Positions 39,647 to 57,817 of a DNA stretch of 64,000 nt are shown here, in pieces. The notes under the pieces were generated by a model, which was given only the letters and a program-made list of their open reading frames with translations, had not been told where the DNA came from and did not search any database. Position 1 is the stretch's first letter, and each line of letters begins with the position of its first letter. The stretch is from Virgisporangium aliadipatigenens. GTDB lineage: Bacteria > Actinomycetota > Actinomycetes > Mycobacteriales > Micromonosporaceae. The translations under genes were made by a program, and so were the position numbers. The stretch is taken from contig NZ_BOPF01000003.1 of assembly GCF_016863615.1 (NCBI RefSeq), positions 1 through 64,000 of the forward strand, given 5' to 3'.

Positions 39647-39896
39647 TGTCGTCGCCGGCGCCGGCCCCGGACGACGTGAGCGCGCCGGCGGTCTGAATCC
39701 CCCTCCGGGCACATATCGAAGACACGACCGTTCGCCATGGTGGGCCGTCGCGCGATGTGGCTGCTCGTCGAGAGTCTCCGGACGTGCGCCGCCGCCTCCT
39801 GCTGGATCCTGTGGTTATGATGCCGACGTCGCCTCCTGCTCGTCGTCCGGTGTGCCCTCACCGCATATGACGTGCCGGGACGACCGAAGGTGACCG

Positions 39897-40811: not shown

Positions 40812-40838
40812 CACACCACCGAGCGACGGAGGACTCTC

Positions 40839-41492
40839 ATGCCGGACACCCGGATCGCCATTGTGTACCACAGCGGATACGGCCACACCCGGCGGCAGGC
40901 CGAGGCGGTGACGAGCGGCGTGGACCGTGTCGCCGGGGCCGAATCCCTGCTGCTGACGGTCGAGCAGGCGCCGCACCGCTGGGACGAGCTGGCCGCCGCC
41001 GACGCGATCGTCTTCGGCACCCCGACGTACGTGGCGGGCGCCTCGGCGGCGTTCAAGGCCTTCCAGGAGGCGAGCTCCAACGCGGTGATGAGTACCGGGT
41101 ACGGGTGGCAGGGCAAGCTCGCCGCCGGGTTCACCAACTCCGGTTCGCGGTCCGGTGACAAGCTCGCCACCCTGATCCAGCTCAGCCTCTTCGCCGCGCA
41201 GCACGGCATGCACTGGGTCAGTCTCGGTCTGCCGCCGGCGAACCACTCCAGCACCGGCTCGGAAGACGACCTCAATCGGCTCGGCTTCTGGCTCGGCGCC
41301 GGTGCACAGTCCAATGTGGACGAAGAACCGGATCTGGCGCCTCCGGAGTCCGACCTGCTGACGGCCGAGCACCTCGGCCGGCGCGTCGCCGAAACCACGC
41401 TGGCGTTCGTGCGCGGGCGCCTTGCCGCCATCGAGCCGGTCGCGGACCGCCCACGGGGTGGGGAATTCAGCATCCGGATGGAGACAAAGTGA
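40839..41492 (+). CDS. Flavodoxin-family NAD(P)H-dependent oxidoreductase (WrbA-like)
   Basis: The protein has 217 residues. The flavin-phosphate loop is IVYHSGYGHTRRQAEAV; DAIVFGTPTYVAGASAAFKA is the 70s-loop motif, and GKLAAGFTNSGSRSGDKLA a later FMN-contacting segment. It matches WrbA/NAD(P)H:quinone-type oxidoreductases that bind FMN. Preceded by GGAGG. Its position after the ECF41 sigma factor suggests it is the sigma factor's direct target, as in other ECF41 loci. Confidence 0.85.
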   Translation: MPDTRIAIVYHSGYGHTRRQAEAVTSGVDRVAGAESLLLTVEQAPHRWDELAAADAIVFGTPTYVAGASAAFKAFQEASSNAVMSTGYGWQGKLAAGFTNSGSRSGDKLATLIQLSLFAAQHGMHWVSLGLPPANHSSTGSEDDLNRLGFWLGAGAQSNVDEEPDLAPPESDLLTAEHLGRRVAETTLAFVRGRLAAIEPVADRPRGGEFSIRMETK

Positions 41493-41525
41493 GCGGGCCC
41501 CGGGCCGAGTCGCGAGCGCTTCGGC

Positions 41526-42284
41526 TCACGGGTCGTCGGTGCGGGGCGCGTCGACGTGGGTGACGAGGTTGATGCCGCCGTCGACGTGGATCACCTCACC
41601 GGTGACGAAGGGGACCTTGATGAGCGCCACGACCATCGCCGCGACGTCGGACGGCTGCCCGAGCCGGCCCAGCGGTGTCATCGCCCTGGTGCGCGCCGCC
41701 CGCGTGGCGAGGCTGTCCGAGGTCAGCCGGGTCTCGATCGGCCCCGGGGCGATCGCGTTCACCCGGATGTCCGGACCCACGGCCTTGGCCATCAGCCTCG
41801 TCAGGTGGTCGAGCGCGGCCTTGCTGACGGAGTAGGGGATCGAACTGCCGAGGGGGCGCGAGCCGCCCACCGAGGTGATGTTGATGATCTGGCCGCCGGG
41901 CTCCATGACCTTCACGGCGGCGACGGAGACCTGCCACGTCCCGACGACGTTGACGCCGAGGATCCGGTGCCAGTCGTCAGCGGTGATCGCATCCAGGTCG
42001 GCGTGCGGGACGGGGCGCGACACCCCGGCGTTGTTCACCAGCAGGTCGAGCCGGCCGTGCCGCGCCACGGTCGTCTCCACCAGGCGCACGGCGTCGGCGC
42101 GATCGGCGATGTCGGCCTGGACGAAGCTGGCCCCCGGGAGTTCGGCCGCGAGCCGCTCACCGGCGTCGACCGAGGTGGCCGAGTTGACCACGACGGTGCA
42201 GCCGTCGGCCGCGAGCGCACGGGCGATCCCCTCTCCGATCCCGGAGCTCGAGCCCGTCACGATGGCGACACGTGGCGCGCTCAC
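41526..42284 (-). CDS. Short-chain dehydrogenase/reductase (SDR)
   Basis: The protein has 252 residues. VAIVTGSSSGIGEGIARALA gives the Rossmann TGxxxGIG, LLVNNAGVSRP the NNAG motif, NITSVGG the catalytic Ser and YSVSKAALDHLTRL the YxxxK pair. NAIAPGPIETRL is the PG motif. It is a classical NAD(P)-dependent alcohol dehydrogenase or ketoreductase. It is the last gene of the leftward arm of the catabolic cluster, starting at GTG next to a tandem repeat; the substrate is probably an intermediate of that pathway. Confidence 0.92.
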   Translation of the reverse strand: MSAPRVAIVTGSSSGIGEGIARALAADGCTVVVNSATSVDAGERLAAELPGASFVQADIADRADAVRLVETTVARHGRLDLLVNNAGVSRPVPHADLDAITADDWHRILGVNVVGTWQVSVAAVKVMEPGGQIINITSVGGSRPLGSSIPYSVSKAALDHLTRLMAKAVGPDIRVNAIAPGPIETRLTSDSLATRAARTRAMTPLGRLGQPSDVAAMVVALIKVPFVTGEVIHVDGGINLVTHVDAPRTDDP

Positions 42285-42319
42285 GATGCTGCCCGCCCCG
42301 CGCTCACGATGCTGCCCGC
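42276..42319 (-). repeat. Perfect 21-bp tandem duplication across the aldolase stop and SDR start
   Basis: Two identical 21-base copies (42276-42296 and 42299-42319) are separated by two bases. Each copy contains TCGTGAGC on the coding strand: in one copy it is the aldolase stop, in the other the SDR start. Ancestrally the genes probably overlapped by GTGA. Confidence 0.85.
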
Positions 42320-43074
42320 TCGGCGACGGGCGCTCTCAGCGCGTTCACGATCGCCCGGCCCCCGCTGGCGAGGATCGAGGTGTCGTTGCTGACCACCACG
42401 TAGTCGTAGCCCCGGGCCAGTGCGGCCCGGGCCTGGTCACTCGTGGCGGACGCGGTACCGATGGGGACACCTGCCGCGGCGGCGGCCGTCAGCGCGGCGG
42501 TGGTGAGCCGGTGCACCTCGTCGCTTCCCGCCGCGACGCCCATCGACATCGAGAGGTCGGCCGTCCCGACGAACACGGCACCGATGCCGTCGATGGCCAG
42601 GATCTCCCGCGCGTTCCTGATCGCCACCTCGCTCTCGAGTTGGACGACGCACAGCGCCTGCTCGTTGCCGTACTCGAGGTAGTCCGCCCGCGGCAGCAGT
42701 CCCCAGCGACCCGCTCGGCTGGTGCCGCCGGACCCGCGGTCGCCGCGCGGCGGGAAGCAGGTGGCCCGCACGACCGTCCGGGCCTGCTCGACCGTGTCGA
42801 CGTGCGGCACGACCACACCGGCCGCGCCGGCGTCCAGGACCCGCTGGATCACGCTCAGGCCGTGGTCGGGCACCCTGACGAGCGGGTCCACGCCGAGGGC
42901 GCGGGCCATCGCGACGTGGGTCGAGGCGGCGCCCAGGTCCAGTGTCGTGTGCTCGAGGTCGATGACCACGAAGTCGAAGCCCGCGTAGGCCATGATCTCG
43001 ACACTCTCGGGGCTGGCGAGCTTGATCCAGGTCCCGAGGGTGCCGCCGTTGATCCCGTCGCGCACCCGCGCCAT
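42304..43074 (-). CDS. HpcH/HpaI-family aldolase/citrate lyase
   Basis: The protein has 256 residues. The family cleaves 2-oxo-3-deoxy- or 4-hydroxy-2-oxo acids into pyruvate plus an aldehyde using a divalent metal. Markers are GTWIKLASPESVEIMAYAGF, FDFVVIDLEHTTLDL (metal/Asp-Glu), DAGAAGVVVPHVDT (Arg/Gly pocket), VQLESEVAIRN (metal Glu) and GIGAVFVGTADLSMSMG (metal Asp). It is the third gene of the leftward arm, 3 bases after the permease stop. The aldehyde product is the natural substrate of the ALDH on the other arm. Confidence 0.92.
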   Translation of the reverse strand: MARVRDGINGGTLGTWIKLASPESVEIMAYAGFDFVVIDLEHTTLDLGAASTHVAMARALGVDPLVRVPDHGLSVIQRVLDAGAAGVVVPHVDTVEQARTVVRATCFPPRGDRGSGGTSRAGRWGLLPRADYLEYGNEQALCVVQLESEVAIRNAREILAIDGIGAVFVGTADLSMSMGVAAGSDEVHRLTTAALTAAAAAGVPIGTASATSDQARAALARGYDYVVVSNDTSILASGGRAIVNALRAPVAERAAS

Positions 43075-43077
43075 GGC

Positions 43078-43971
43078 TCAGATCCCGCCGGCGGTGTCGG
43101 TGGGGGTGGCGGTCCAGAAGACCAGCCACTTGCCGAGCCGCACGACGACCGCGTGCAGTGCGATGCCGACAGCCGACAGTACGACGATCACCGCGAAGGT
43201 CCTGGCCACGTCCAGGGTGAAGTTGCTCGCCTGGATCAGGTAGCCCAGACCTTCGGAGCTGCCGACGAACTCCGCGACGACGGCGCCGGTCACGGACAGG
43301 ATGACGGCGACCTCCAGTCCCGCGAAGATGTGCGGAAGCGCCGACGGGATCTGCAGGTGCCGCATGACCTGCATGCGGGACGCGCCGAAGGACCGGAGCA
43401 TCTCGACCTGCTCGTGGGCGGCGGACCGGAATCCCAGGATGGCGTTGATGAGGAGGGGGAAGAACGCGATCAGGGCCACGGTCAGCACCTTCGAGCTGAT
43501 CCCGATGCCGAACCAGACGATCAGCAGCGGCGCCATGGCGACCTTCGGGATCGTCTGGGTCAGGATGAGCAGCGGGAAGAGCACGCGCTCCACCGTCCGG
43601 AACTGCGTGATGAGCACCGCGGACACCAGTGCCGAGCCGACCGCGATGCCGAACCCGATCAGGATTTCCTTCAGGGTGACGATCGAGTGGGTCAGCAGTG
43701 TGCCGTCCTGGAAGCCGTCGACCAGGGAGTCGGCGACGGCCGTGGGCGTGGGGACGAGGATGTTGGAGACGTCGAACATCTTCACGACGGCCTGCCAGAG
43801 CACCAACAGCCCGAGGAACACCAGCACGCTGTGGGCGATCCCGGGTACTCGGCGGCGTCGGCGTCGGACCGCGGTGGCCGAGCTCGTGGGCGCCTCCACC
43901 GGCACGGTCCCGCCCTCCGGGACGGCGAGTACCTCTCGGCCGGCTGCGTGGCGCTTGGTGTTGGTGAACAT
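43078..43971 (-). CDS. ABC transporter permease (SsuC/TauC-like)
   Basis: The protein has 297 residues with about six membrane helices. The EAA-like cytoplasmic loop is seen as MLRSFGASRMQVMRHLQIPS. The family imports nitrate, sulfonates, taurine or aromatic-like substrates. It is 3 bases from the aldolase gene and 8 bases from the ATPase gene. The partner solute-binding lipoprotein is on the rightward arm (47659), so the transporter is split across the two operons. Confidence 0.9.
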   Translation of the reverse strand: MFTNTKRHAAGREVLAVPEGGTVPVEAPTSSATAVRRRRRRVPGIAHSVLVFLGLLVLWQAVVKMFDVSNILVPTPTAVADSLVDGFQDGTLLTHSIVTLKEILIGFGIAVGSALVSAVLITQFRTVERVLFPLLILTQTIPKVAMAPLLIVWFGIGISSKVLTVALIAFFPLLINAILGFRSAAHEQVEMLRSFGASRMQVMRHLQIPSALPHIFAGLEVAVILSVTGAVVAEFVGSSEGLGYLIQASNFTLDVARTFAVIVVLSAVGIALHAVVVRLGKWLVFWTATPTDTAGGI

Positions 43972-43979
43972 CGGGTCTC

Positions 43980-44777
43980 CTAGTGGGCGCTGTGCTCGGA
44001 GTCGAGTAACTTGCGGATCTTCAGGACGATCTCGCCGAACTCGGGCGTGTTGATGTTCTCGAGCCGCCGGGGTCGAGGGAGTGCGACCTCGACGACGTCC
44101 GCCAACCGGCCGGGTCGCGGTGTCATGACCACGACGCGGTCGGCGAGGAGCACCGCTTCGGGGATGCTGTGCGTCACGAACAGCACGGTCTTGCGGTCCT
44201 GGTCCCAGATCCTCAGCAGGTCCAGTCCCATCTGGTCGCGGGTCATCGCGTCGAGGGCGCCGAACGGCTCGTCCATGAGCAGGATGCGCGGGTCGTGCAT
44301 CAGGGCCCGGCCGATGCCGACCCGCTGCTGCATCCCGCCGGACAGTTCGTTGGGGTACCGGTCGCCGAACTCCTCGAGGCCGAGCATCACCAGCAGCTCG
44401 TCGGCTTTCGCGTGGGTCGCGGCGTCCCGGGCGTGGTGCAGGTCCGGCGACGTCAGCAGGTTCTTCCGCACGGTGCGCCAGGGCAGCAGCAGCGGCTGCT
44501 GGAAGACCATCCCGAGCTGGTTGCGGTGGCTGTCGTCCGACGGCCCGAAGGTGACCTGTCCGGAGGTCTGGCGGGACAGGCCCATGATGATCCGCAGCAG
44601 CGTGCTCTTGCCGCAGCCGCTGGGGCCGACGATGGAGATGAACTCACCGGCTCGGACGCTGAGGGAGACGTCGTCGAGAGCCTGGACGGTCCCGCCGGAC
44701 TTCGTCGGGTAGAGCATGGACAGCGAGTCCAGGCGGATCACGAAGTCGGTGTCGGTGCTGGTCGGCATGTCAGTCAT
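43980..44777 (-). CDS. ABC transporter ATP-binding protein (SsuB/TauB-like)
   Basis: The protein has 265 residues. Walker A is GPSGCGKST, Q-loop GMVFQQPLLLPWRTV, signature LSGGMQQRVGIGRAL, Walker B ILLMDEPFGALD and H-switch FVTHSIPEAVLLADR. This is the nitrate/sulfonate-type import ATPase. It lies 53 bases after the IclR gene and is expected to be co-expressed with the permease. It energises uptake of the cluster substrate. Confidence 0.93.
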   Translation of the reverse strand: MTDMPTSTDTDFVIRLDSLSMLYPTKSGGTVQALDDVSLSVRAGEFISIVGPSGCGKSTLLRIIMGLSRQTSGQVTFGPSDDSHRNQLGMVFQQPLLLPWRTVRKNLLTSPDLHHARDAATHAKADELLVMLGLEEFGDRYPNELSGGMQQRVGIGRALMHDPRILLMDEPFGALDAMTRDQMGLDLLRIWDQDRKTVLFVTHSIPEAVLLADRVVVMTPRPGRLADVVEVALPRPRRLENINTPEFGEIVLKIRKLLDSEHSAH

Positions 44778-44830
44778 TCCTCACCTGGTTCGAGCGCAGG
44801 CTGCCCGCGCCTCGGCTGTCGTGCTGGCGA

Positions 44831-45610
44831 TCAGTCGGCCGCCTCGGGCCACGTGCCGCCCATCTCCTTGGTCAGTCGCTTGCAGACGGCCTTCAACGCC
44901 GTGGCCTCGCGGGAGTCCAGGGCGTCCGGCAGCATCCGCTCGGTGCCGACGGCCGCGATCGTGGCGCAGATCCCGGTCGCCGCGAACACCGGCGCCGCGA
45001 CGACGCAGATGCCGCGGTGGTTGACGTCGCTGCTCATGCCGGCCTGTCGGATCGCCTCGATCCGCCGGCGAGTCTCGGTGCGCTGGGGCTCGGGGAGACT
45101 GCCGGTGAGTCGCTCGGCGTGGAACTGGTCTGGGAGGAAGGCCAGGAAGACCTTGGCCTGCGAGGAGTTGAGGGCGAGCTGCGAGCCCACCCGCACCGTC
45201 ACCAGGGTGGGATGGTCGGCCTCCTCCACCAGCGAGACCACCGGGCCGGAGGTGCCCCACAGCGACAGCACGATGCTGATCTTGATGTCGAGCGTGAGCT
45301 CGCGCATGTAGGCCGGCGCCATCTGCAGGATGCGCTGCTGTCCCAGCGCGAAGCTGCCGAGCTGCAGGATCGACCGTCCGGGACGGACGAGAGCGGAGTC
45401 CTCCACGCGCTCGAGCAGGCCGGAGCCGATCATCGAGCTGAAGTAGCGGTGCACCGTGGTCCGCTTCAGGTCGAGCCGGCGGCTGGTCTCCGCGACGGAG
45501 AGCTCCGGAGTCTCCGGTCCGAACAGTCCGAGGATCTGCGCCGTCCGGCTCACCGCCTGGATGTCCTGCTCGCGAGCAGTCACCGGCTTGTCGAGCTCGT
45601 GCTCCGTCAT
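44831..45610 (-). CDS. IclR-family transcriptional regulator of the catabolic cluster
   Basis: The protein has 259 residues. The N-terminal HTH lies in SVAETSRRLDLKRTTVHRYF (position ~38-57), followed by the IclR effector domain with LSLWGTSGPVVSLVEEADHP and GICVVAAPVFAATGICATIA. It is first in the leftward arm and divergent from the DUF6282 gene. Two related palindromes at 45651-45666 and 45749-45764 are its likely sites, placing both arms under its control. IclR members can repress or activate; the inducer is probably the pathway substrate. ATG 45610 has GAGGG upstream. Confidence 0.9.
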   Translation of the reverse strand: MTEHELDKPVTAREQDIQAVSRTAQILGLFGPETPELSVAETSRRLDLKRTTVHRYFSSMIGSGLLERVEDSALVRPGRSILQLGSFALGQQRILQMAPAYMRELTLDIKISIVLSLWGTSGPVVSLVEEADHPTLVTVRVGSQLALNSSQAKVFLAFLPDQFHAERLTGSLPEPQRTETRRRIEAIRQAGMSSDVNHRGICVVAAPVFAATGICATIAAVGTERMLPDALDSREATALKAVCKRLTKEMGGTWPEAAD

Positions 45611-45650
45611 CGACCCTCGTCTCGTTGGGGTGTCCACAAAGTGTTCACGT

Positions 45651-45666
45651 AGTCCGCAGTACGGAC
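45651..45666. promoter_or_regulatory. Putative IclR operator 1
   Basis: AGTCCGCAGTACGGAC has GTCCG and CGGAC arms around CAGTA, 41 bases before the IclR start. It resembles site 2 read in the opposite direction (AGTCCGC shared), as expected for two copies of one operator. Confidence 0.55.
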
Positions 45667-45748
45667 AGAGGGTAGGCGTGCCCTACGTACCACTGCAAGG
45701 TTTCCCTGGGATTTCGCGCAAGTGCCTTTCGCGCCCCTCCTCTTGACA

Positions 45749-45764
45749 GACCGCATAGCGGACT
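45749..45764. promoter_or_regulatory. Putative IclR operator 2 beside a -35-like TTGACA
   Basis: On the plus strand GACCGCATAGCGGACT; its complement AGTCCGCTATGCGGTC matches site 1 in ten of sixteen positions or more, with the same AGTCCGC arm. TTGACA (45743-45748) abuts it, suggesting control of the rightward promoter. A GACAGAC/GTCTGTC inverted repeat (45745-45775) surrounds it. Confidence 0.5.
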
Positions 45765-45807
45765 CAGAGTCTGTCATGCGAACACTGCTGACCCAGGGGG
45801 AGACTTC

Positions 45808-46698
45808 ATGACCGACACACCCGCCGTCATCAAGCTGCTGAACGGCTGCGTTGACCTGCACTGCCACTCCGGTCCGAACCCGTTCCCTCGACGCATCGAC
45901 CACGCCGAGGCCGGCAAGGACGGAGAGCGGCTCGGGATGCGGGGCGTGCTGGTGAAGTCCCACCACCACAACACCGTCATGGACCTGCTCGCGATGAGCG
46001 ACCGGCTGGCGAAGATCAGCACTCCGGTCTTCGGCGGCATAACCCTGAACAGCATGGTCGGCGGCATCAACCCGCAGGCGGTGGCCATGTCGTTGCGCAT
46101 GGGCGGCAAGGCCGTGTGGTTTCCGACGTTCTCGGCCGGCCGGCACATCGACTGCCATCCGGAGGGCGTCGGCTTCCCCACGGCGAGCGTCGAGGTGCCG
46201 TCGTCCCGGGTCGACATCCACCAGGAGAACGGTGATCTCATCCCGCAGGTCTACGAGGTGCTCGACCTGGTGAAGGAGACCGGAGCGATGGTGACCGGCG
46301 GTCACATGGAGACCGAGTCGATCACCCAGCTGTTCGCCGCGGCGAAGGAGAAGGGGGTCACCCGGATGCTGCTCAACCATCCCGACTACGTCATCGGTGC
46401 GGACGAGGCGAAGTGTCGTGAGCTGGTCGGATACGGAGCTTTCATCGAGCACGAGACCGGCTTCTACGACCCCGAGGGGACCAAGAAGTGGGACCCGAAG
46501 ATCCTCCTCGACTGGATCGAGAAGATCGGTCCGGAGCACACCGTGATGGCCTCCGACCTCGGGCAGAAGGATCGTCCGCTGCCGGTGGACTCCTACATCC
46601 GCGTCGCGACCGCGCTGTTGGACCTCGGCCTGGACGAGCGGTCGCTGCGCCGGATCTTCTGCGACAACCCGGCTTTCCTGCTCGGCCTGGACGACTGA
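45808..46698 (+). CDS. DUF6282 amidohydrolase-like protein
   Basis: The protein has 296 residues. GCVDLHCHSGPNPFPRRIDH carries the HxH-like metal motif at the start. Later His/Asp-containing segments (KSHHHNTV, TGGHMETESITQLFAA, LNHPDYVIG and TVMASDLGQKDRPLP) resemble the TIM-barrel amidohydrolase/PHP-like fold. DUF6282 members are found beside aldolases, dioxygenases and CoA-transferases, consistent with a hydrolase step. The reaction is unknown. It is the first gene of the rightward arm, 44 bases from operator 2. Confidence 0.8.
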   Translation: MTDTPAVIKLLNGCVDLHCHSGPNPFPRRIDHAEAGKDGERLGMRGVLVKSHHHNTVMDLLAMSDRLAKISTPVFGGITLNSMVGGINPQAVAMSLRMGGKAVWFPTFSAGRHIDCHPEGVGFPTASVEVPSSRVDIHQENGDLIPQVYEVLDLVKETGAMVTGGHMETESITQLFAAAKEKGVTRMLLNHPDYVIGADEAKCRELVGYGAFIEHETGFYDPEGTKKWDPKILLDWIEKIGPEHTVMASDLGQKDRPLPVDSYIRVATALLDLGLDERSLRRIFCDNPAFLLGLDD

Positions 46699-46733
46699 AC
46701 CGGCATCCTGCCGCTGACCCGAAAGGACAGAAG

Positions 46734-47600
46734 ATGACCACCCTGGCCACCCCGCCCGATGTGGAGTTCTCCGACCTCGGTACGGGCGATCCCGACGAGA
46801 CGACCCCTGGCGGATCGTCGACGTGGTACTTCCGCGGACACAACTTCGTGCTCGCCCACACGACGCTGGTCGCCGGCGACGTGCTGGAGCGGGGTGATCA
46901 GCCGGACGAGTACGTCGTGATCCTCCCCGCCGAGGAGTGCGACGTCGAGGTTCGTGCGTCGGGGGAGGTCGTGTCGGTCTCGGGCAAGGCGGTGGTGATG
47001 GTTCCGCCGGGCAGCAGCGCGATCGTCGGTGTCGACGACTGCACCGTCGTGCGGCTGTTCAGCTGTCGCTCCACCGACCTGCTGGACAAGGCGCGCAACC
47101 GGGATTCGTACGCGCAGCCGCACCCGAACGTCAGGCCGTTCGAGCCGTGGCCGGACCCGCCGGAGGGTTATCGCATCCGGCCCTACCGGCTGGCCGACCT
47201 GACGGTGACGCAGGACGCGGTCCGCCCGGGCCAGATCGTGCGGTGCAGCACCTTCATGGTCAACTTCCTGGCGCCCAGGATCGGTCCGCGCGACCCGGAC
47301 AGCCTCTCGCCGCACGACCACGACGACTTCGAGCAGTGCTCGCTCGCCGTCGAGGGGGAGTACGTCCACCACCTGCGGACCCCGTGGTCGAAGCGGCGCA
47401 GCGAATGGCGCGAGGACCGGCACCTGCGGTGCGGCAGTCCTTCGGTGGCCGTGATCCCGCCACCCATGATCCACACCAGCGAGGCCGTGGGATCGGGGAC
47501 CAATCAGCTGATCGACATCTTCTGTCCGCCGCGTCTGGACTTCTCCCTGAAGCCGGGCCGAGTGCTCAACGAAGACACCTACCCGCTCCCCACCCTGTAA
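46734..47600 (+). CDS. Bicupin-like protein
   Basis: The protein has 288 residues. I read two cupin-like halves: the first around NFVLAHTTLVAGDVLERGDQ to AVVMVPPGSSAIVG; the second around SPHDHDDFEQCSLAVEGEYV and PPPMIHTSEAVG, where His residues and a Glu could hold a metal. It may be a ring-cleaving dioxygenase or an isomerase; it may also be a non-catalytic accessory protein. It is second in the rightward arm, 35 bases after the previous stop. Start ATG 46734 follows AAAGGAC. Confidence 0.65.
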   Translation: MTTLATPPDVEFSDLGTGDPDETTPGGSSTWYFRGHNFVLAHTTLVAGDVLERGDQPDEYVVILPAEECDVEVRASGEVVSVSGKAVVMVPPGSSAIVGVDDCTVVRLFSCRSTDLLDKARNRDSYAQPHPNVRPFEPWPDPPEGYRIRPYRLADLTVTQDAVRPGQIVRCSTFMVNFLAPRIGPRDPDSLSPHDHDDFEQCSLAVEGEYVHHLRTPWSKRRSEWREDRHLRCGSPSVAVIPPPMIHTSEAVGSGTNQLIDIFCPPRLDFSLKPGRVLNEDTYPLPTL

Positions 47601-47611
47601 CGACACACTCG

Positions 47612-47642
47612 CCACCCACCCCCACCCCCACCCCCACCCCCC
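47612..47642 (+). repeat. C-rich tract, minus-strand G-quadruplex-forming
   Basis: It is a run of C blocks separated by single A (three to six C each, at least five blocks), between the bicupin stop and the start of the substrate-binding protein gene at 47659. Its complement has consecutive G-tracts able to fold as a G-quadruplex on the template strand. It is the only such tract I noticed in the window. Confidence 0.7.
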
Positions 47643-47658
47643 GTAAGGAAGGTTCATC

Positions 47659-48741
47659 GTGACGACCAGACGAGCGATGAAGGTCTTAAGTGGTGCGGTC
47701 GCCGTCCTGTGCGCGGCGGCGACGCTGAGCGCGTGCGGATCCGACGACGACTCAGCCAAGGCCGGCGGGCTGACGCCGGTGACGTTCGCGATGGCGTCCC
47801 CGAGCTGGAACGCGGGCTTCGCGGTCATGGCCGTCGTGGAGGCCGAGGGCTTCTACGAGGAGGAGGGCCTGAAGGTCACGACCAACCTGTTCCCGTCGGC
47901 CACCCAGGCGGCGCAGCAGGTCGCCGGCGGCGGGGCGGACCTCGGCCTCATGACGGTCGAGCCGGTGGCCATCGGGCACGACAAGGACCTGAACCTGGCC
48001 TACTTCGGCTCCTACTGGCCGGAGTGGATCTACAGCCTGCAGGTGCCGGACGGCTCGAACGTGAAGAGCATCGCCGACCTGAAGGGCAAGAAGATCGGCG
48101 TCTCCGCGGTCGCGAGCTCCGGCGCGACGTTCGCCCGGACGGCGCTGGAGCTCAACGGGATGAGCCAGGACGCCGCGACCCTGGTGCCGATCGGTGCCGG
48201 CGCCCAGCAGATCAACGCCATCAAGACCGGCCAGGTCGACGCGTTGGCACTCTGGGACATCCAGTACCAGATGGTCAAGAACGCCGGTGTCAACCTGACG
48301 CCGCTTCCGGTCAAGGAGGCGGCGGGCGCGTGGGGCGGCGGCTTCGCGACGACCCGGAAGAACCTCAAGGCCAAGAAGGACGTCCTCGAACGCTTCGGTC
48401 GTGCGGTCGCGAAGGCGTTCGTCTTCGCCAAGGCCAACCCCGAGGCCGCGATCCGCGCCCTGTGGAAGCTCTACCCGGAGACCCGCGGGTCCGACCCGGA
48501 GGAGAAGGCGCTGGCCGACGGGATCAAGGTTCTCGATGTCCGACTGGCCGGGCAGGGGTTCGACGACAAGAGCCTGGGCCGGATCGACGAGGCAGCGTGC
48601 ACCCGGGCGATCGACCTGATGACCTCGGCCAAAATGATCAAGAAGTTTCCGGCGAAGGAGATCTACACCGACGAGATGTTCAAGGCGTTCAACGACTTCT
48701 CCTACGACGACATCACCAAACGAGCGAAGAGCGCCGGCTGA
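47659..48741 (+). CDS. Substrate-binding lipoprotein of an ABC importer (NMT1/THI5-like)
   Basis: The protein has 360 residues. The lipobox is LSAC (Cys at about residue 26). MASPSWNAGFAVMAVVEAEG, GLKVTTNLFPSATQAAQQVA and LKGKKIGVSAVASSGAT match NMT1/SsuA-type solute-binding proteins. It binds the substrate outside the membrane and delivers it to the permease at 43078. GTG 47659 follows AAGGAAGG. It is split from the other transporter genes but shares the IclR-controlled region. Confidence 0.9.
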   Translation: MTTRRAMKVLSGAVAVLCAAATLSACGSDDDSAKAGGLTPVTFAMASPSWNAGFAVMAVVEAEGFYEEEGLKVTTNLFPSATQAAQQVAGGGADLGLMTVEPVAIGHDKDLNLAYFGSYWPEWIYSLQVPDGSNVKSIADLKGKKIGVSAVASSGATFARTALELNGMSQDAATLVPIGAGAQQINAIKTGQVDALALWDIQYQMVKNAGVNLTPLPVKEAAGAWGGGFATTRKNLKAKKDVLERFGRAVAKAFVFAKANPEAAIRALWKLYPETRGSDPEEKALADGIKVLDVRLAGQGFDDKSLGRIDEAACTRAIDLMTSAKMIKKFPAKEIYTDEMFKAFNDFSYDDITKRAKSAG

Positions 48742-49749
48742 ATGCGGCTGGGGATCGCGCTCGACCTGAGCTCCCGGGAGCCGGTGCGCCCACAGGTGGA
48801 CCGCACGGTCACGATGCTCGCCCGCGCGGAGCGGCACGGGTTCGACTCCGCGTGGGTGGGGGAGAGCTATCACGCGGCCGCTCAGCCGTTCCACCTGCCG
48901 TCCGCCCTGATGGTCCTGGGGCATCTGGCCGGCCGGACGTCGCTGGCGCTGGGATCGGCGGTGCTGCTCCTGCGCGCGTACAGCCCGGAGAAGCTGGCCT
49001 ACGAGGCCGCGCTGCTCGACCAGCTGTGCGGCGGGAAGCTCACGCTCGGCCTCGGCCTCGGCAGCCCGGAGGTCGCCCGACGGGCCGGGCTGCCCGCGAA
49101 AGGTCCGGCCGGTGCGGCCTTCGACGCCACGCTCACGCTGCTGCGCGACGCCTGGTCCGCCGACGCGAGCACCGATTCGCCGGTGGCGGTCCCACCCCCG
49201 CTGCGGCGCGGCGGGCCGCGGATCCTGGTGGGCGGCAGCGTACCTGCCTCGGCCCGTCGCGCGGCGACGCTCGCCGACGGCTTCTACGGCGCGACGAACT
49301 ACCGCGACGACCTGTTGATCAGACAGTCGGCCGCCTACTGGTCGTATCGCGGCGGACGGCCGGGGGGAGCGGTCGCCACCACCAGGTTCTGCGTCGTCCA
49401 CGAGGATGCCGCCACTGCTCGCGAACTCGCCGCGTGCCACCTGAAGGCCGCTTCCGACTACTACACCGAGCGCGGCTTGTGGATGGGTGCGGACGGCCCC
49501 ACTGAGCCGGAGTTCCCCATGGTGGGCACGCCCGACGAGATCGACGCGACGATCGCCCGGTACGTGCGGGCGGGCGTCACGTCCGTCCAGTTGCGGGTCG
49601 CCCCGTTCGGCACGCCGCCCGACGTCGCCCGCCACACGCTCGACCTCGTCGGGCGGCACGTCCTCCCGCACTGGCACGCCACGACGAGTTCCGCACGCAC
49701 GCGAAGGACGCCTCCCGAGATGGGGCAGGAAGTGGAGACGACCCGATGA
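48742..49749 (+). CDS. LLM-class flavin-dependent oxidoreductase
   Basis: The protein has 335 residues. RAERHGFDSAWVGESYH, LALGSAVLLLRAYSPEKLAY and LTLGLGLGSPEVARRAG are luciferase-like monooxygenase motifs; a C-terminal domain follows. Such enzymes use FMNH2 or F420H2; no flavin reductase gene is in the cluster, so F420 is possible. The TGA of the upstream gene abuts the ATG. It is the only oxygenase-like gene in the cluster and is the obvious first oxidative step. Confidence 0.88.
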   Translation: MRLGIALDLSSREPVRPQVDRTVTMLARAERHGFDSAWVGESYHAAAQPFHLPSALMVLGHLAGRTSLALGSAVLLLRAYSPEKLAYEAALLDQLCGGKLTLGLGLGSPEVARRAGLPAKGPAGAAFDATLTLLRDAWSADASTDSPVAVPPPLRRGGPRILVGGSVPASARRAATLADGFYGATNYRDDLLIRQSAAYWSYRGGRPGGAVATTRFCVVHEDAATARELAACHLKAASDYYTERGLWMGADGPTEPEFPMVGTPDEIDATIARYVRAGVTSVQLRVAPFGTPPDVARHTLDLVGRHVLPHWHATTSSARTRRTPPEMGQEVETTR

Positions 49750-50939
49750 GCAGCTCATTCGTGTACGCGTCGGTCCGGACCCCGTTCGGCCGGTTCAACG
49801 GGGCCCTGGCCGACACGAGGACCGACGATCTGGCCGCGACCGCACTGAAGGGACTTCTCGACCGCTCGCCGGGCCTGGATCCCGGCCTGGTCGACGACGT
49901 GTTCTGGGGCAACGCCAACGGCGCCGGCGAGGACAATCGCAACGTCGGCCGGATGGCCGTGCTGCTGGCGGGCATGCCCGTCGCGGTGACCGCCACGACG
50001 GTGAACCGGCTCTGCGGCTCGTCGCTGGACGCCGCCATGATGGCCGCACGCATGATCGAGGTCGACGACGCGGAGATCGCGATCGCCGGAGGCGTGGAGT
50101 CGATGACGCGGGCGCCGTGGGTCCTGCCGAAGCCGTCGCGTCGGTTCCCGGCCGGCGACGTCACCGCCGTCTCCACGACGCTGGGCTGGCGTCTGGTGAA
50201 CGAGCGGATGCCCGCCGAGTGGACGGCCTCGCTGGGCGAGTGCAACGAGCAGCTGCGGGAGAAGTTCTCGATCTCGCGCGAGCGGCAGGACGAGTTCGGC
50301 GCCCGCTCGCACCGCCTCGCGGCGCAGGCGTGGGAGAAGGGCTTCTACGACGACCTCGTGGTCCCCGTCCCCGGCACCGACCTGGTCCGGGACGAGAGCA
50401 TCCGGGCCGGCACCTCGGTCGAGGCGCTGGCCGGGCTGAAGCCGGCGTTCCGGCCCGACGGGACGATCACCGCCGGCAACTGCTCACCGTTGAACGACGG
50501 CGCGAGCGCGGTCCTGCTGGGCTCGGCGCGCGCGGCGGCGTCCATCGGTCGTGACCCGGTCGCGCGGATCGCCGGTCGCGGCTGGTCGGCGCTGGAGCCG
50601 CAGCAGTTCGGCTACGCCCCGGTCGAGGCGGCCAACGACGCGCTCGAACGGGCCGGCATCACCTGGGAGGACATCGGCGCCGTCGAGCTGAACGAGGCGT
50701 TCGCCGTCCAGTCGATCGCCTGTGTCGACGCCTGGCTCGAACTCGGGCTGCGGGACGCCGACGTCGTCAACGCCAAGGGCGGGGCGATCGCCATCGGGCA
50801 CCCGCTGGGCGCCTCCGGCGGGCGCATCCTCGGGACCCTCGCGGCGCGGCTCGTGGAGTCCGGTGAACGATGGGGCCTGGCGGCCATCTGCATCGGTGTG
50901 GGCCAAGGCTTGGCGGTCGTCCTCGAGAACGTCTCATGA
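49746..50939 (+). CDS. Acetyl-CoA acyltransferase (thiolase), 3-oxoadipyl-CoA thiolase-like
   Basis: The protein has 397 residues. It performs CoA-dependent cleavage of a 3-oxoacyl-CoA to acetyl-CoA plus a shortened acyl-CoA. The acylated Cys is in TTVNRLCGSSLDA, His in AIAIGHPLGASGG and the second Cys in AICIGVGQG. The usual NGGAIA reads KGGAIA here. The gene overlaps its predecessor and its successor by four bases each, so it is tightly coupled with the CoA-transferase. The pairing is as in 3-oxoadipate catabolism (pcaIJF). Confidence 0.92.
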   Translation: MSSSFVYASVRTPFGRFNGALADTRTDDLAATALKGLLDRSPGLDPGLVDDVFWGNANGAGEDNRNVGRMAVLLAGMPVAVTATTVNRLCGSSLDAAMMAARMIEVDDAEIAIAGGVESMTRAPWVLPKPSRRFPAGDVTAVSTTLGWRLVNERMPAEWTASLGECNEQLREKFSISRERQDEFGARSHRLAAQAWEKGFYDDLVVPVPGTDLVRDESIRAGTSVEALAGLKPAFRPDGTITAGNCSPLNDGASAVLLGSARAAASIGRDPVARIAGRGWSALEPQQFGYAPVEAANDALERAGITWEDIGAVELNEAFAVQSIACVDAWLELGLRDADVVNAKGGAIAIGHPLGASGGRILGTLAARLVESGERWGLAAICIGVGQGLAVVLENVS

Positions 50940-51616
50940 CGCGGCTCTGCACCTCTGTCGACGAGGCGGTCAGCGGCATCGCCGACGGCTCGACGGTGCT
51001 GATCGGCGGCTTCGGCACGGCCGGCATGCCGTTCGACCTGATCGAGGGGCTGATCCGGCAGGGAGCGCGGGACCTCACCGTCGTGTCGAACAACGCGGGC
51101 AACGCGGACACCGGGCTCGCGGCGCTGCTCGCGGCCGGGCAGGTGCGCAAGATCGTCTGCTCGTTCCCCCGGCAGACGGACTCCTGGGTCTTCGAGGAGC
51201 TGTACCGCAACGGGAAGATCGAGCTCGAGGTCGCCCCGCAGGGGAGCCTGGCCGAGCGGCTGCGCGCCGCCGGGGCCGGGATCGGCGGGTTCTACACCCG
51301 CACCGGAGTCGGGACCCTCCTCGCGGAGGGAAAGGAGACCCGCGAGATCGACGGCCGGACCTACGTCCTCGAACTGCCCATCGCCGCCGACGTCGCGCTC
51401 ATCAGCGCCCACACCGCGGACACCCTCGGGAACCTCGTCTACCGCAAGACGGCACGCAACTTCGCTCCCGTCATGGCGACGGCCGCGACGACCACCGTCG
51501 TGCAGGTGCGGCACGTCGTCGAGCCGGGCGTGCTGGATCCCGAGGCGGTGGTCACCCCGGGCATCTACGTCGACCGGATCGTGCGGGTGGCCGCTGTGCA
51601 GGGGAGGGCGGCATGA
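50936..51616 (+). CDS. 3-oxoacid CoA-transferase subunit A
   Basis: The protein has 226 residues. The signature GGFGTAGMPFDLIEGLI, then LTVVSNNAGN and PQGSLAERLRAAGAGIGGFY, is that of the alpha subunit of PcaI/ScoA-type enzymes. It transfers CoA from succinyl- or acetyl-CoA to a 3-oxoacid. Overlaps by four bases with both neighbours. Confidence 0.92.
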   Translation: MTRLCTSVDEAVSGIADGSTVLIGGFGTAGMPFDLIEGLIRQGARDLTVVSNNAGNADTGLAALLAAGQVRKIVCSFPRQTDSWVFEELYRNGKIELEVAPQGSLAERLRAAGAGIGGFYTRTGVGTLLAEGKETREIDGRTYVLELPIAADVALISAHTADTLGNLVYRKTARNFAPVMATAATTTVVQVRHVVEPGVLDPEAVVTPGIYVDRIVRVAAVQGRAA

Positions 51617-52296
51617 GTGTGGTGTCCGCGGGCGTCGTCGAGCACACCGACCGCGGCCCGCTCGGACGGGACGAGATGGCCCGGGTACTCGCCGGCGACA
51701 TTCCCCGCGGGGCGTACGTCAACCTCGGCATAGGCCAGCCCACGACCGTCGGCGACCACCTCCCCCCGGAGTCGGGGGTCATCCTGCACACCGAGAACGG
51801 CATGCTGGGCATGGGGCCGGCGGCGACGGGCGACGCGATCGATCCCGACCTGATCAATGCCGGCAAGTTCCCGGTGACCGAGCTTCCCGGCGCCTCGTAC
51901 TTCCACCACGCCGACTCGTTCGCCATGATGCGAGGCGGCCACCTCGACCTGTGCGTCCTCGGCGCCTATCAGGTGTCGGTGTCGGGGGATCTCGCCAACT
52001 GGCACACCGGTGAGCCCGACGCGATCCCGGCGGTCGGCGGGGCGATGGACCTCGCCGTGGGCGCCAAGCAGGTCTTCGTGCTGATGTCGCTGTTCACCAG
52101 GACCGGCGAGCCGAAGCTCGTCAGGGAATGTACGTATCCGCTCACCGCGCTGCGCTGCGTGGACCGGGTCTACACCGACGTCGCCACGTTCGAGATCACC
52201 GGAGGAGACCAGGTCCTCGTCCGGGAGACGTGGGGGATGTCGTTCCACGAGCTCCGCTCGCGCGTCGACGTCCCGCTCACCGCGGCTACACCGTGA
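51613..52296 (+). CDS. 3-oxoacid CoA-transferase subunit B
   Basis: The protein has 227 residues. The beta-subunit catalytic Glu is in HTENGMLGMGP; VNLGIGQPTTVGDHL and VGAKQVFVLM complete the signature. With subunit A it forms the heterotetramer. Together with the thiolase it activates and then cleaves a 3-oxoacid. Confidence 0.92.
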   Translation: MSVVSAGVVEHTDRGPLGRDEMARVLAGDIPRGAYVNLGIGQPTTVGDHLPPESGVILHTENGMLGMGPAATGDAIDPDLINAGKFPVTELPGASYFHHADSFAMMRGGHLDLCVLGAYQVSVSGDLANWHTGEPDAIPAVGGAMDLAVGAKQVFVLMSLFTRTGEPKLVRECTYPLTALRCVDRVYTDVATFEITGGDQVLVRETWGMSFHELRSRVDVPLTAATP

Positions 52297-52325
52297 CCAC
52301 GCCCGTCAGGAGGTTGGAGAGCGAC

Positions 52326-53753
52326 ATGTCCACCAGGCACCAGTTCTACATCGGGGGTGCGTGGGTCGATCCGGCCGCGCCGCGGACCCTGGGCGTCGTC
52401 GACCCCGCGACCGAGGAGACGTTCGCGACGATCAGCCTCGGGACGGCCGAGGACGTCGACCGCGCGGTGGCGGCGGCGCGTGCGGCGTTCGCCACGTACT
52501 CGCAGGTCAGCGTGAAGCAACGGCTGGAGTACCTCGAGCGGATCAGCTCCGGCTTCCGGGCCCGGCTGCCCGAGATCGCCCGGACGATGACCCGCGAGAT
52601 GGGTTCGCCGATCACGTTCTCGACGGAACGCCAGGCCACGGTGGCGCTGTTCCACTTCGAGGAGGCGGCCCGCGTGCTGGCGGACTACCGCTTCGAGGAG
52701 GAGATGGGAGCCGGGATCGTGCGGCGCGAGCCGATCGGCGTCTGCGGTCTCATCACGCCGTGGAACTGGCCGCTGAACCAGGTCGCCTCGAAGGTGGCCC
52801 CGGCCCTCGCCACGGGATGCACGGTGGTGCTCAAGCCGAGCGAGATCGCGCCGCTCAGCGCCATGGTGCTCGCCGAGGTCATCCACGACGCCGGGCTGCC
52901 GCCCGGAGCGTTCAACCTCGTCAACGGCGACGGTCCCACGGTCGGTGAGGCCATCGCGGCGCACCCCGACATCGACATGGTCTCGCTCACCGGCTCGACC
53001 GGCGCCGGCATCAGGGTTTCCAAGCTGGCGGCCGACACGGTGAAGCGCGTCGCGCTCGAACTCGGCGGCAAGTCGGCCAACATCGTCCTGCCCGACGCGG
53101 ACCTGGAATCCGCGGTCATCGCCGGGGTGCACTCGTGCTTCACCAACGCCGGCCAGAACTGTCAGTCGCCCACGCGGATGCTGGTGCACCGCTCGCAGCG
53201 GGACGAGGCGTACGCCGCCGCGCGACGGGCGGTCGAGGAGGTGCGTCTCGGGAACCCGCTCGATCCGTCGACCACGATGGGGCCCGTGGTGAGCCGGGCC
53301 CAGCTGGAGAAGATCACCGCGCTCATGCAGTCGGGGATCGACGAGGGTGCGACGCTCGTGGTCGGCGGCCCGGGACGCCCCGACGGGCTCGACGACGGGT
53401 TCTACGTCCGCCCGACCGTCTTCGGCGACGTCACGCCGCGGATGCGGATCGCGCGCGAGGAGATCTTCGGCCCCGTGCTCTCGATCCTGCTCTACGAGAC
53501 CGAGGACGAGGCCGTCGAGATCGCGAACGACACGCCGTTCGGCCTGGCGGGCTTCGTGCAGTCGAAGGACCCCGACCGCGCCCGCAGGGTCGCCAACCGC
53601 ATCCGTGCGGGCCGCGTCTACCTCAACGGCGCTCCGTTCGACCGCAGCCTGCCGTTCGGCGGCTACAAGCAGTCCGGGAACGGGCGGGAGTTCGGCCGGT
53701 TCGGCTTCGAGGAGTACCTCGAGGTGAAGGCCGTGCTCGGGTACCCACGGTGA
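52326..53753 (+). CDS. NAD(P)-dependent aldehyde dehydrogenase
   Basis: The protein has 475 residues. PWNWPLNQVASKVAPALATG is the cofactor-binding part, LELGGKSANIVL the Glu motif, NAGQNCQSPTRMLV the catalytic Cys motif and EEIFGPVLSILLY the C-terminal landmark. It oxidises an aldehyde to an acid, most simply the aldehyde released by the HpcH/HpaI aldolase. It is 29 bases downstream of the CoA-transferase. Confidence 0.94.
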   Translation: MSTRHQFYIGGAWVDPAAPRTLGVVDPATEETFATISLGTAEDVDRAVAAARAAFATYSQVSVKQRLEYLERISSGFRARLPEIARTMTREMGSPITFSTERQATVALFHFEEAARVLADYRFEEEMGAGIVRREPIGVCGLITPWNWPLNQVASKVAPALATGCTVVLKPSEIAPLSAMVLAEVIHDAGLPPGAFNLVNGDGPTVGEAIAAHPDIDMVSLTGSTGAGIRVSKLAADTVKRVALELGGKSANIVLPDADLESAVIAGVHSCFTNAGQNCQSPTRMLVHRSQRDEAYAAARRAVEEVRLGNPLDPSTTMGPVVSRAQLEKITALMQSGIDEGATLVVGGPGRPDGLDDGFYVRPTVFGDVTPRMRIAREEIFGPVLSILLYETEDEAVEIANDTPFGLAGFVQSKDPDRARRVANRIRAGRVYLNGAPFDRSLPFGGYKQSGNGREFGRFGFEEYLEVKAVLGYPR

Positions 53754-54373
53754 ACGGGATGAACCCCGATCGGCTCGCCGCCCTGCTGGACCGCGAGGAG
53801 CTCTTCGACCTGGTGCGGCGCGAACGCTTCGCCCGCGACCAGCGGCTCTTCGAGGTGATGCGGGACTGCTTCCACGACGACGCCTACGTGCGGACCACGT
53901 GGTACGACGGACGCGGCGGCGAGGCCTACGTCGAGGCGACGAAGGCGTGGATGGGTCGGACCGGGAACAGCAAACACTGGGTCTTCCCCGCCTACGCGCG
54001 GGTCGAGGGCGACCGCGCGACCGTCGAGAGCCCGGCGAAGATCTTCAACCGGACCACGGTGGAGGGAGTGGACGTCGACTTCCACGCCTATTGCCGGTTC
54101 TTCTCTCGTGCCGTTCGGGACGAAGGGCGGTGGCGGCTGATGAGCTTCGAGGTCCTGCTGGAGCGCGACGAACTGCGCCCCGTCCACGCGGGTGAGGCGC
54201 TCCCGGTGGACGCGGCCCGGCTCGCCGGGTTTCGGCCGTCCTACCGGTTCATCACCTGGATCCAGTCGACCCGTGGCGTGATGGTGAGTCAGGACCTGCT
54301 CGGCGACGACCGGCCGGCCGAGCTCGACGCGTTCCATCAGGGCGAGACCGCCTGGCTCGCCGGCACGCAATAG
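53750..54373 (+). CDS. NTF2-like (nuclear transport factor 2 / SnoaL) protein
   Basis: The protein has 207 residues. LLDREELFDLVRRERFARDQ, then MRDCFHDDAYVRTTWYDGRG and DEGRWRLMSFEVLLERDEL, follow the SnoaL_4/NTF2-like pattern seen in ring-hydroxylating-dioxygenase beta-like and dehydratase-like proteins. A GTG at 53750 overlaps the ALDH stop; ATG 53759 is an alternative. It is the last gene of the rightward arm; it may supply dehydration, isomerisation or ligand binding. Confidence 0.75.
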   Translation: MNGMNPDRLAALLDREELFDLVRRERFARDQRLFEVMRDCFHDDAYVRTTWYDGRGGEAYVEATKAWMGRTGNSKHWVFPAYARVEGDRATVESPAKIFNRTTVEGVDVDFHAYCRFFSRAVRDEGRWRLMSFEVLLERDELRPVHAGEALPVDAARLAGFRPSYRFITWIQSTRGVMVSQDLLGDDRPAELDAFHQGETAWLAGTQ

Positions 54374-54442
54374 CGACGGCGCCGCGGGCTTGCTCGCGCG
54401 GCTGCTGCTCACCGATGAGGAGACGGGTTCTGCCTCGACCGA

Positions 54443-55618
54443 TCACCGGGCCATCCGGTTCAGCCGGCCGGCCGCCGCCTGCCGCACGGTGGCGACCGGG
54501 TCCTCGGCGAGGCGCCGGAGCAGCGTTTCGGCTTCTTCCGGGGCGAGGTGCCCGACCACGAACGCCACCCGTTGCCGGACCGCCGGGTCGGGGTCGTCCG
54601 CCAGTTCGGTGACCGGGCCGGCCCAGCGCGACGAGCCGTCCGCGACGGTGGCGAGCCCGCTCAGGGTGGCGGCGCGCACCGTCGGGTCGGGATCGCGGGC
54701 CAGCCGCGTCAGGTGCGGCGCGGCGCGCGGGTCGGTGTCGGCGGCTTTCGCGAGCGCCTTGGCCGCCTGCGCCCGTCGGTACGGGTCGTCGCCGGTGGCC
54801 TCGGCGAGCAGCGCGTCGACGGCGGCCGGCGCACCGATCCCGCCGAGCGCGTCCCGGGCCTGGTCGCGCACGTGCCGATCCGCGTCGTGCAGCAGGGCCA
54901 GCAGGGCCGGTGTCGCCGACGGATCGCCGAGCCTGCCGAGCGCGTAGGCCGTTCGGGCGCGCATCCGCGGGTCGTCGTGTGTCGTGGCGGCGGCGAGCGC
55001 GGCCACGGCCGCGGGGCGCCCGGTCGCCGCGAGCCGGTTGATCGCCGCCGTCGCCACGTGCTCGTCGGCGTCGTGCAGAGCCGCGCGGACGATGCCGAAG
55101 GCCCGGTCGTCTCTGGCGGGGTCGACGACCGTCTCGACCGCCATGAGCCGGATCTCCGGATCGGTGTGACCGGCCGCCTCGGCCAGCAGCGCGGCATCGC
55201 CGGGCTCCGCCACGGCGCCCAACGCCAGCAGCCCCACGCGTCGCCGGTGCGGGGCGTCGGCGCGGACGAGGTCCAGGACGATGCGCCGGGCGGCCGCCGG
55301 GTCCTCGGCGAGCAACCCGTCGATGTCGCTCTGCAGGCCGTCCTGGTCGTCGCCGAGGTCCCGGTCCGCCGCCAGCAACAGGGCGGGCAACGCCGCCACA
55401 CCGGCGATGCCGGCGAGCAGGCCGGCGATGATGTCGCGACCGTAGAAGTTCCCGTCGTCGAGGAAGCGTTCGAGAGCCTCGTGCAGGCGGGGTACCAGGG
55501 TGAGGTCGCCGGAATCGACGAGCGCCTCCACGGTCGGCGCGATCTCCTCGTAGTCGAGCGCGCCCTGTTGCGCGCCGTGCTCGATCACGGACTCGAGGGC
55601 GGCACCGCTGTGTGGCAT
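54443..55618 (-). CDS. HEAT-repeat protein
   Basis: The protein has 391 residues. It consists of tandem HEAT/PBS-like helical repeats over nearly its full length (IRLMAVETVVDPARDD, MRARTAYALGRLGDPS, VRDQARDALGGIGAPA, VRQRVAFVVGHLAPEE, each with the conserved Arg/Ala helix). HEAT scaffolds bind other proteins or phycobilin-like ligands. No catalytic site is seen. ATG 55618 is chosen over GTG 55621. Confidence 0.82.
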   Translation of the reverse strand: MPHSGAALESVIEHGAQQGALDYEEIAPTVEALVDSGDLTLVPRLHEALERFLDDGNFYGRDIIAGLLAGIAGVAALPALLLAADRDLGDDQDGLQSDIDGLLAEDPAAARRIVLDLVRADAPHRRRVGLLALGAVAEPGDAALLAEAAGHTDPEIRLMAVETVVDPARDDRAFGIVRAALHDADEHVATAAINRLAATGRPAAVAALAAATTHDDPRMRARTAYALGRLGDPSATPALLALLHDADRHVRDQARDALGGIGAPAAVDALLAEATGDDPYRRAQAAKALAKAADTDPRAAPHLTRLARDPDPTVRAATLSGLATVADGSSRWAGPVTELADDPDPAVRQRVAFVVGHLAPEEAETLLRRLAEDPVATVRQAAAGRLNRMAR

Positions 55619-55649
55619 CACGCCACCCTGTCACACCGCGCCGGCTCCC

Positions 55650-56483: not shown

Positions 56484-56490
56484 GGACCCA

Positions 56491-57069: not shown

Positions 57070-57141
57070 GAGCCAAGAGCCTGCCAGGCGCCACGCGCCG
57101 ACCGGAACGTCGGCGCGCGTTCCCGCCGCCCGGGCCGGCCG

Positions 57142-57723: not shown

Positions 57724-57781
57724 GTACTCCCCTCTCGACCGGACACGGTACCGGGGTTGCTCGGGGACTTGATCGTCGCGC

Positions 57782-57801: not shown

Positions 57802-57817
57802 ACTGGGGAGGAACGAG

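Follow-up and report, generated by a model that had tools for sequence, protein, structure and literature searches.

Within a window of 64,000 nucleotides from Virgisporangium aliadipatigenens (contig NZ_BOPF01000003.1, positions 1 to 64,000), the 12.9-kb range 41526-54373 carries 14 genes, thirteen of them structural or transport genes and one an IclR-type regulator. Judged from sequence comparison with its relatives, this cluster is a self-contained, horizontally mobile catabolic cassette that has passed between distant hosts. Its probable role in soil actinobacteria is the uptake and breakdown of a small compound, most likely a ring, which is opened by hydrolysis and then yields pyruvate, with what remains converted to acetyl-CoA. 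Three of its products, a DUF6282 protein, a bicupin and an HpcH/HpaI aldolase, recur together far beyond this cluster. Tentatively, and with slightly more doubt than belief, we propose that they form a new, widespread and portable ring-opening module built around a lactonase-hydratase pair, which would serve many different upstream routes in both actinobacteria and proteobacteria, would have travelled from order to order as a whole cassette and would in the window be fed from a cyclic compound of undescribed breakdown. The sequence of hydrolysis, hydration and aldol cleavage is already known; the parts, DUF6282 and the bicupin, would be new. In the literature searched (most subscription papers lay outside its scope), DUF6282 is named in no paper and we found no described cluster with this gene set, nor a one-to-one match to a known pathway, in keeping with the original prediction, which had recognised none. 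If true, the proposal offers a testable function for DUF6282, a family of unknown function, and for a bicupin that Pfam and NCBIfam models do not catch, and it adds a second way in which a cupin can serve as the hydratase in pyrone breakdown.

Results

The original prediction had described one functional unit of thirteen genes plus a regulator with a split ATP-binding cassette (ABC) importer, and the locus bears this out. All 14 genes are present, with open reading frames. The minus arm reads IclR, ABC ATPase, permease, HpcH/HpaI aldolase and short-chain dehydrogenase/reductase (SDR); the plus arm reads DUF6282, bicupin, NMT1-type binding protein, luciferase-like flavin-dependent oxidoreductase (LLM), thiolase, CoA-transferase A and B, aldehyde dehydrogenase (ALDH) and a SnoaL-like protein, with four-base overlaps between several adjacent genes. 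The importer is thus divided, with ATPase and permease on the minus arm and the binding protein on the plus arm. Among the best 80 of 89 confirmed genome loci of DUF6282, all 14 genes occur together at ≥60% identity in eight (L032-L039), hosted by Actinoplanes, Streptomyces, two Nonomuraea, two Virgisporangium, Pseudosporangium and Aeromicrobium. When positions 38001-58000 are compared with relatives' loci (blastn at 1e-20), DNA similarity to nine relatives, the eight full clusters and a partial copy in genome G406, starts at 41522-41541 and ends at 54362-54389, which are the limits of the predicted unit. This agreement and the eight full clusters speak for a unit beyond what chance would give. 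Five flank proteins of the window have no match in 13 relatives' loci, covering a few kb on each side. For the same reason a neighbouring FMN-reductase-like gene (40839-41492), considered as a partner of the LLM, was rejected.

Horizontal movement is indicated because the Streptomyces and Nonomuraea copies (L033 and L034) are 92-94% identical to the window in their main pieces while rpoB is only 80.4% and 80.8% identical. The corresponding values are 90-93% against 87-91% for the Micromonosporaceae-type loci (L032, L035, L037 and L038), 84-85% against 81% for Aeromicrobium (L039) and 88-91% against 83% for G406. By its rpoB, the window's genome (10.3 Mb) would itself fall in Micromonosporaceae.

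The association of DUF6282, bicupin and aldolase can be seen from either side. A bicupin lies within 3 kb of DUF6282 in 77 of the 80 loci (exceptions L043, L081 and L097) and an aldolase in 72 (exceptions L043, L060, L064, L075, L077, L081, L092 and L093), with an IclR relative within 10 kb in 68. Starting from the bicupin, DUF6282 is found within 1.5 kb in 17 of 19 places and the aldolase in 16 of 19, in 15 genomes of the order. The bicupin is present in 15 of 298 genomes of the order and DUF6282 in 47, and every bicupin genome carries DUF6282 (Fisher 1.1e-13, with kinship ignored and the window's own genome counted). Such aldolases are rare, with two in the window's genome and three in G406 at E 1e-10. 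Neighbourhoods vary: in L125, DUF6282 adjoins acyl-CoA genes, and a sister cluster on contig C25 of the window's genome joins a cyclase, IclR and an SBP_bac_8-type importer to a second group of DUF6282, BKACE, bicupin, aldolase, SDR, iron-dependent alcohol dehydrogenase and ALDH. A third, distant DUF6282 gene of this genome (C37, 2636-3271; ~30% identity) has neither bicupin nor aldolase in 14 kb. A cyclase-family protein (PF04199) occurs near the triad in 33 of the 80 loci (L070-L111) and a dihydroorotate-dehydrogenase-like protein in five.

Plasmids show what accompanies the bicupin elsewhere. In a sample of 13 of 27 bicupin-bearing plasmid records, an HpcH-type aldolase is present in 12 (exception L117) and DUF6282 in 8. 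Near the bicupin, L112 has a bphC-type (VOC-type) dioxygenase, an alpha/beta hydrolase and a hydroxylase; L123 a VOC-type dioxygenase, a hydrolase, a flavin monooxygenase and BKACE; L122 a Rieske protein; and L116 has LigB (PF02900, 7.8e-28) directly upstream of bicupin and aldolase, all four lacking DUF6282. Bicupin and aldolase therefore appear, from gene neighbourhood, to supply the lower steps of pathways that cleave rings, and DUF6282 often seems to take the place of the ring-opening enzyme, because loci without it (L112, L123 and L116) carry ring-cleaving enzymes instead. NTF2/SnoaL-like genes also recur beside bicupins that lack DUF6282 (L112, L117, L122 and L123), as at 53759-54373 in the window.

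The DUF6282 protein (45808..46698, plus strand; Pfam PF19799, 6.5e-66) scores 222 bits against a curated cut-off of 26.8 and is hence a family member. Its structure model (predicted local distance difference test (pLDDT) 92.6) has an amidohydrolase-superfamily TIM-barrel fold according to Foldseek, with E values down to 1.4e-8 and template modelling (TM) scores of about 0.5-0.6. Lactonase/phosphotriesterase entries are the majority of the 50 matches listed, and ranks 1-2 are an uncharacterised protein; sequence profiles gave no significant PDB match. In the alignment, H18, H20, H166, H191, H215 and D250 are invariant in 45 of 45 sequences; five of them (H18, H20, H166, H191 and D250) are candidates for the HxH, H, H and D metal ligands of the amidohydrolase superfamily. 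The modelled fold suggests a metal-dependent ring-opening hydrolase, plausibly a lactonase.

The bicupin (46734..47600, plus strand), a predicted hydratase or tautomerase, is labelled a hypothetical protein in public records. It matches no Pfam or NCBIfam family, hence no curated oxygenase (gentisate-type) family. Its model (pLDDT 93.5) has two cupin beta-barrels and matches bicupins in Foldseek, the nearest folds being oxalate decarboxylase, quercetin dioxygenase, DUF861, BacB and AerE. Oxygenase, decarboxylase and isomerase/hydratase are all compatible with the modelled fold. The profile built from 45 bicupins has weak matches, to a Cupin_2 protein at E 0.0021 and to KdgF at E 0.012, and 14 of the 45 touch AraC_binding (best E 0.00065). 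H194, H196, H212 and H213 are invariant, and E200 and H247 nearly so. These residues are compatible with a metal site and, together with the oxalate decarboxylase and quercetin dioxygenase matches and the presence of the LLM in the cluster, would also suit a different scheme, in which the bicupin is a gentisate- or quercetinase-like ring-cleaving dioxygenase acting after hydroxylation by the LLM, and DUF6282 an amidohydrolase-superfamily hydratase or decarboxylase on the opened product. We consider this unlikely. The bicupin adjoins dedicated ring-cleaving dioxygenases in L112, L116 and L123, where it would be redundant as another, no Pfam oxygenase family matches it, and its weak profile matches are the Cupin_2 protein and KdgF.

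The aldolase (42304..43074, minus strand; Pfam HpcH_HpaI, 4.8e-36) is predicted to release pyruvate. It reaches 166 of the 369 bits set for the HpaI equivalog TIGR02311, which places it in the wider HpcH_HpaI family only, and its best PDB match is the 2-keto-3-deoxy sugar aldolase YfaU (1.9e-38), followed by HpaI. That match, and the weak one of the bicupin profile to KdgF, would fit a sugar-acid or deoxy-acid pathway of SDR oxidation, DUF6282 as lactonase, a KdgF-like cupin isomerase, a 2-keto-3-deoxy acid aldolase and an ALDH for the aldehyde. The deoxyribonate pathway likewise combines lactonase, SDR and BKACE (PMC6365646). We find such a pathway quite improbable here: the cluster also holds an LLM, a CoA-transferase with a PcaF/SCOT-like thiolase and an Ssu/Tau-type importer, and LigB, VOC dioxygenase, Rieske and flavin monooxygenases recur in bicupin loci.

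The last genes of the proposed route indicate a beta-keto acid. Subunits A (50936..51616, plus strand; TIGR02429, 347 bits, cut-off 128.5) and B (51613..52296, plus strand; TIGR02428, 256 bits, cut-off 243.55) of a 3-oxoacid CoA-transferase fall in the PcaIJ/SCOT group, and B matches best, in the PDB, subunit B of succinyl-CoA:3-ketoacid CoA-transferase; no second subunit B was found in the window's genome at E 1e-3. The thiolase (49746..50939, plus strand; Pfam Thiolase_N, 7.4e-67) exceeds the TIGR01930 cut-off and reaches 418 of the 597 bits set for the PcaF equivalog TIGR02430. The beta-ketoadipate lower pathway (PcaI, PcaJ and PcaF) likewise has CoA-transferase A/B and thiolase in one operon, but the window thiolase stays below the PcaF cut-off and the closest solved CoA-transferases are SCOT. 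BKACE (PF05853, 5e-95), which acts on beta-keto acids (PMC6365646), is near 35 of the 80 DUF6282 loci, a recurrence that fits a product of this type. The idea that CoA-transferase and BKACE exclude each other was considered and rejected for CoA-transferase pairs of any kind: BKACE is present in 6 of 20 such loci, no less than chance (35 of 80). A hint of exclusion is seen for close relatives of the window's subunit A (≥60% identity), with BKACE in 0 of 14 loci against 35 of 66 (p 1.6e-4, cut-off chosen afterwards and kinship ignored).

For the whole pathway, in which every activity is a prediction, we see the chances as about evenly balanced. The split transporter would import a small (hetero)cyclic compound, which SDR, ALDH and LLM would adapt, and DUF6282, as a metal-dependent hydrolase, would open the ring of the lactone or 2-pyrone. 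The bicupin would hydrate or tautomerise the resulting acid of the 2-hydroxy-dienoate type, and the aldolase would cleave it to pyruvate and a second piece that either already is a beta-keto acid, for instance acetoacetate, or is oxidised to one; the CoA-transferase would then activate this acid and the thiolase cleave it to acetyl-CoA.

Two known systems share this order. The lower pathway of protocatechuate 4,5-cleavage (LigI, LigU, LigJ and LigK) runs from lactonase through tautomerase/hydratase to aldolase, and LigI is an amidohydrolase-superfamily pyrone hydrolase. The model for the window follows the same order but differs in that DUF6282 is a Pfam family of its own, a bicupin takes the hydratase place and the cluster has no dioxygenase. 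The other is lumichrome (riboflavin) catabolism in Nocardioides simplex, where, according to Sinha et al., who also cite LigI and LigJ, the Co-dependent hydrolase LumW opens a 6-carboxypyrone, the cupin LumY hydrates the product and the aldolase LumX yields pyruvate and acetoacetate in vitro (PMC12746152). Our model rests on the parallel between this LumW-LumY-LumX chemistry and a lactonase-like fold, a cupin, an aldolase of a pyruvate-forming family, a CoA-transferase and a thiolase; by analogy, acetoacetate would be usable by the 3-oxoacid CoA-transferase and thiolase of the window. The likeness drawn here is one of chemical order, and Pfam scans find none of the P450, xanthine-oxidase, Rieske or extradiol dioxygenase genes of the lumichrome pathway among the 14 cluster genes. 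Looking for the lum cluster by way of HpcH_HpaI among the family members of G684 proved too general, with matches in 110 of 120 genomes, and was discarded. Another cupin-superfamily enzyme, Variovorax IfcD of the ifc isoflavone cluster, is described as acting, after ring cleavage, on a 2-hydroxy-4-pyranone and giving a ring-opened product (PMC11069340). Its products are reported as masses with predicted structures, the likeness to the bicupin is by description only, and DUF6282 is not named in the passages of that report consulted here.

Several observations weigh against the proposed module and pathway. The fold matches of DUF6282 are remote (12-16% identity, TM about 0.5-0.6), and a small number of enzymes, listed repeatedly as mutants, account for many of the lactonase entries. 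The top folds of the bicupin fit an oxygenase or a decarboxylase equally. LumY and LumW are 16 and 40 kDa (PMC12746152), against 31 kDa for the bicupin and 32 kDa for DUF6282, so the latter two are not plain counterparts. DUF6282 also works without the bicupin, as 32 of 47 DUF6282 genomes have no bicupin match. L043 lacks both bicupin and aldolase, the bicupin of L117 is accompanied by no aldolase, DUF6282 or ring-cleaving dioxygenase, and 31 of 80 loci have neither a CoA-transferase pair nor BKACE within 10 kb. Finally, the G406 copy (L149, G406:C1:4073000-4092500) keeps the cluster at 84-94% protein identity precisely without aldolase and LLM, its thiolase starting directly after the stop codon of the binding protein. 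Elsewhere G406 has a 54% identical LLM and aldolases of 53% and 48% identity, the latter adjoining its two other bicupins, and a supply of both activities in trans is possible. This copy offers a natural comparison for the roles of aldolase and LLM.

It also bears on the LLM (48742..49749, plus strand; Pfam Bac_luciferase, 7.1e-33), all of whose NCBIfam matches are below cut-off. The original prediction had suggested oxygenation or ring-opening, aldol cleavage, aldehyde oxidation, CoA activation and thiolysis, in that order. Aldol cleavage followed by CoA activation and thiolysis holds in outline; an opening step of oxygenation by the LLM is doubtful because a close relative, G406, lacks exactly the LLM and aldolase genes, and an LLM is near only 13 of the 80 DUF6282 loci. 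Gene distribution points to hydrolysis by DUF6282, and not oxygenation by the LLM, as the ring-opening step. Luciferase-family type II Baeyer-Villiger enzymes form lactones, and the LLM may be such an enzyme, forming the lactone. A pathway in which the LLM comes first and opens or desulfonates the substrate, leaving the carbon skeleton to the other enzymes, would draw on the presence of the LLM in 8 of 8 full clusters and on the importer, whose three components have their top scores in the nitrate, taurine and sulfonate subfamilies, all below cut-off, so that it resembles sulfonate importers. We give it little credence, given the same distribution of the LLM and the absence of any sulfur-metabolism gene within the cluster borders (Pfam scans of the 14 genes).

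The substrate could not be fixed because importer and LLM score below subfamily cut-offs and importers vary between sister clusters (NMT1-type ABC, SBP_bac_8-type ABC, major facilitator superfamily and TRAP). Kojic acid and other pyrones were considered as substrates, and we make no claim for them. In the window, the importer consists of an Ssu/Tau-like permease (43078..43971, minus strand; Pfam BPD_transp_1, 2.9e-26, and NCBIfam), an ATPase (43980..44777, minus strand; Pfam ABC_tran, 5e-35) and an NMT1-type substrate-binding lipoprotein (47659..48741, plus strand; Pfam NMT1, 2.4e-30). Four of the eight full clusters (L033, L034, L036 and L039) have a second NMT1-type gene after the LLM; an extra one, before or after the LLM, is also seen in L041-L043.

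Divergent control by IclR, as originally predicted, is compatible with the region between the arms. The regulator (44831..45610, minus strand) matches NCBIfam TIGR02431 only (E 1.4e-14, 54 bits against a cut-off of 285). The 198 bases between it and DUF6282 hold two palindromes and a partial one. The first, GTCCGCAGTACGGAC (45652..45666, no strand assigned), is a candidate IclR operator kept as a GTTCGCAGTACGGAC-like block in 11 aligned intergenic regions. The second (45749-45763) and the partial third (45769-45783) lie in a conserved block with TTGACAGA (45743..45783, plus strand), a candidate plus-arm promoter with operators; the palindrome blocks and TTGACAGA stand out in all 11 aligned relatives. 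A pattern scan found no sigma-70-type promoter or terminator in this region. With up to two mismatches allowed, the window contains the operator motif 14 times where 10.4 would be expected, and its presence alone is not significant because 21 of 100 shuffles reach 14. What speaks for an operator is that the blocks are kept in relatives and that the best two occurrences of the motif, with 0 and 1 mismatches, fall between the divergent arms. IclR may govern both arms through the shared region, and inducer screening should be straightforward given the sharp borders and the operator-like palindromes.

The remaining genes are the SDR dehydrogenase (41526..42284, minus strand; Pfam adh_short_C2, 1.3e-59), the ALDH (52326..53753, plus strand; Pfam Aldedh, 2.8e-160) and the SnoaL/NTF2-like protein (53759..54373, plus strand; Pfam SnoaL_4, 8.5e-16, scanned within the open reading frame 53135-54373). 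Between the bicupin and binding-protein genes, positions 47600-47660 form a C-rich short tandem repeat (CACCCCC-like). Outside the cluster, positions 12001-16000 are strongly skewed by the window's standards (GC skew -0.20, AT skew 0.31).

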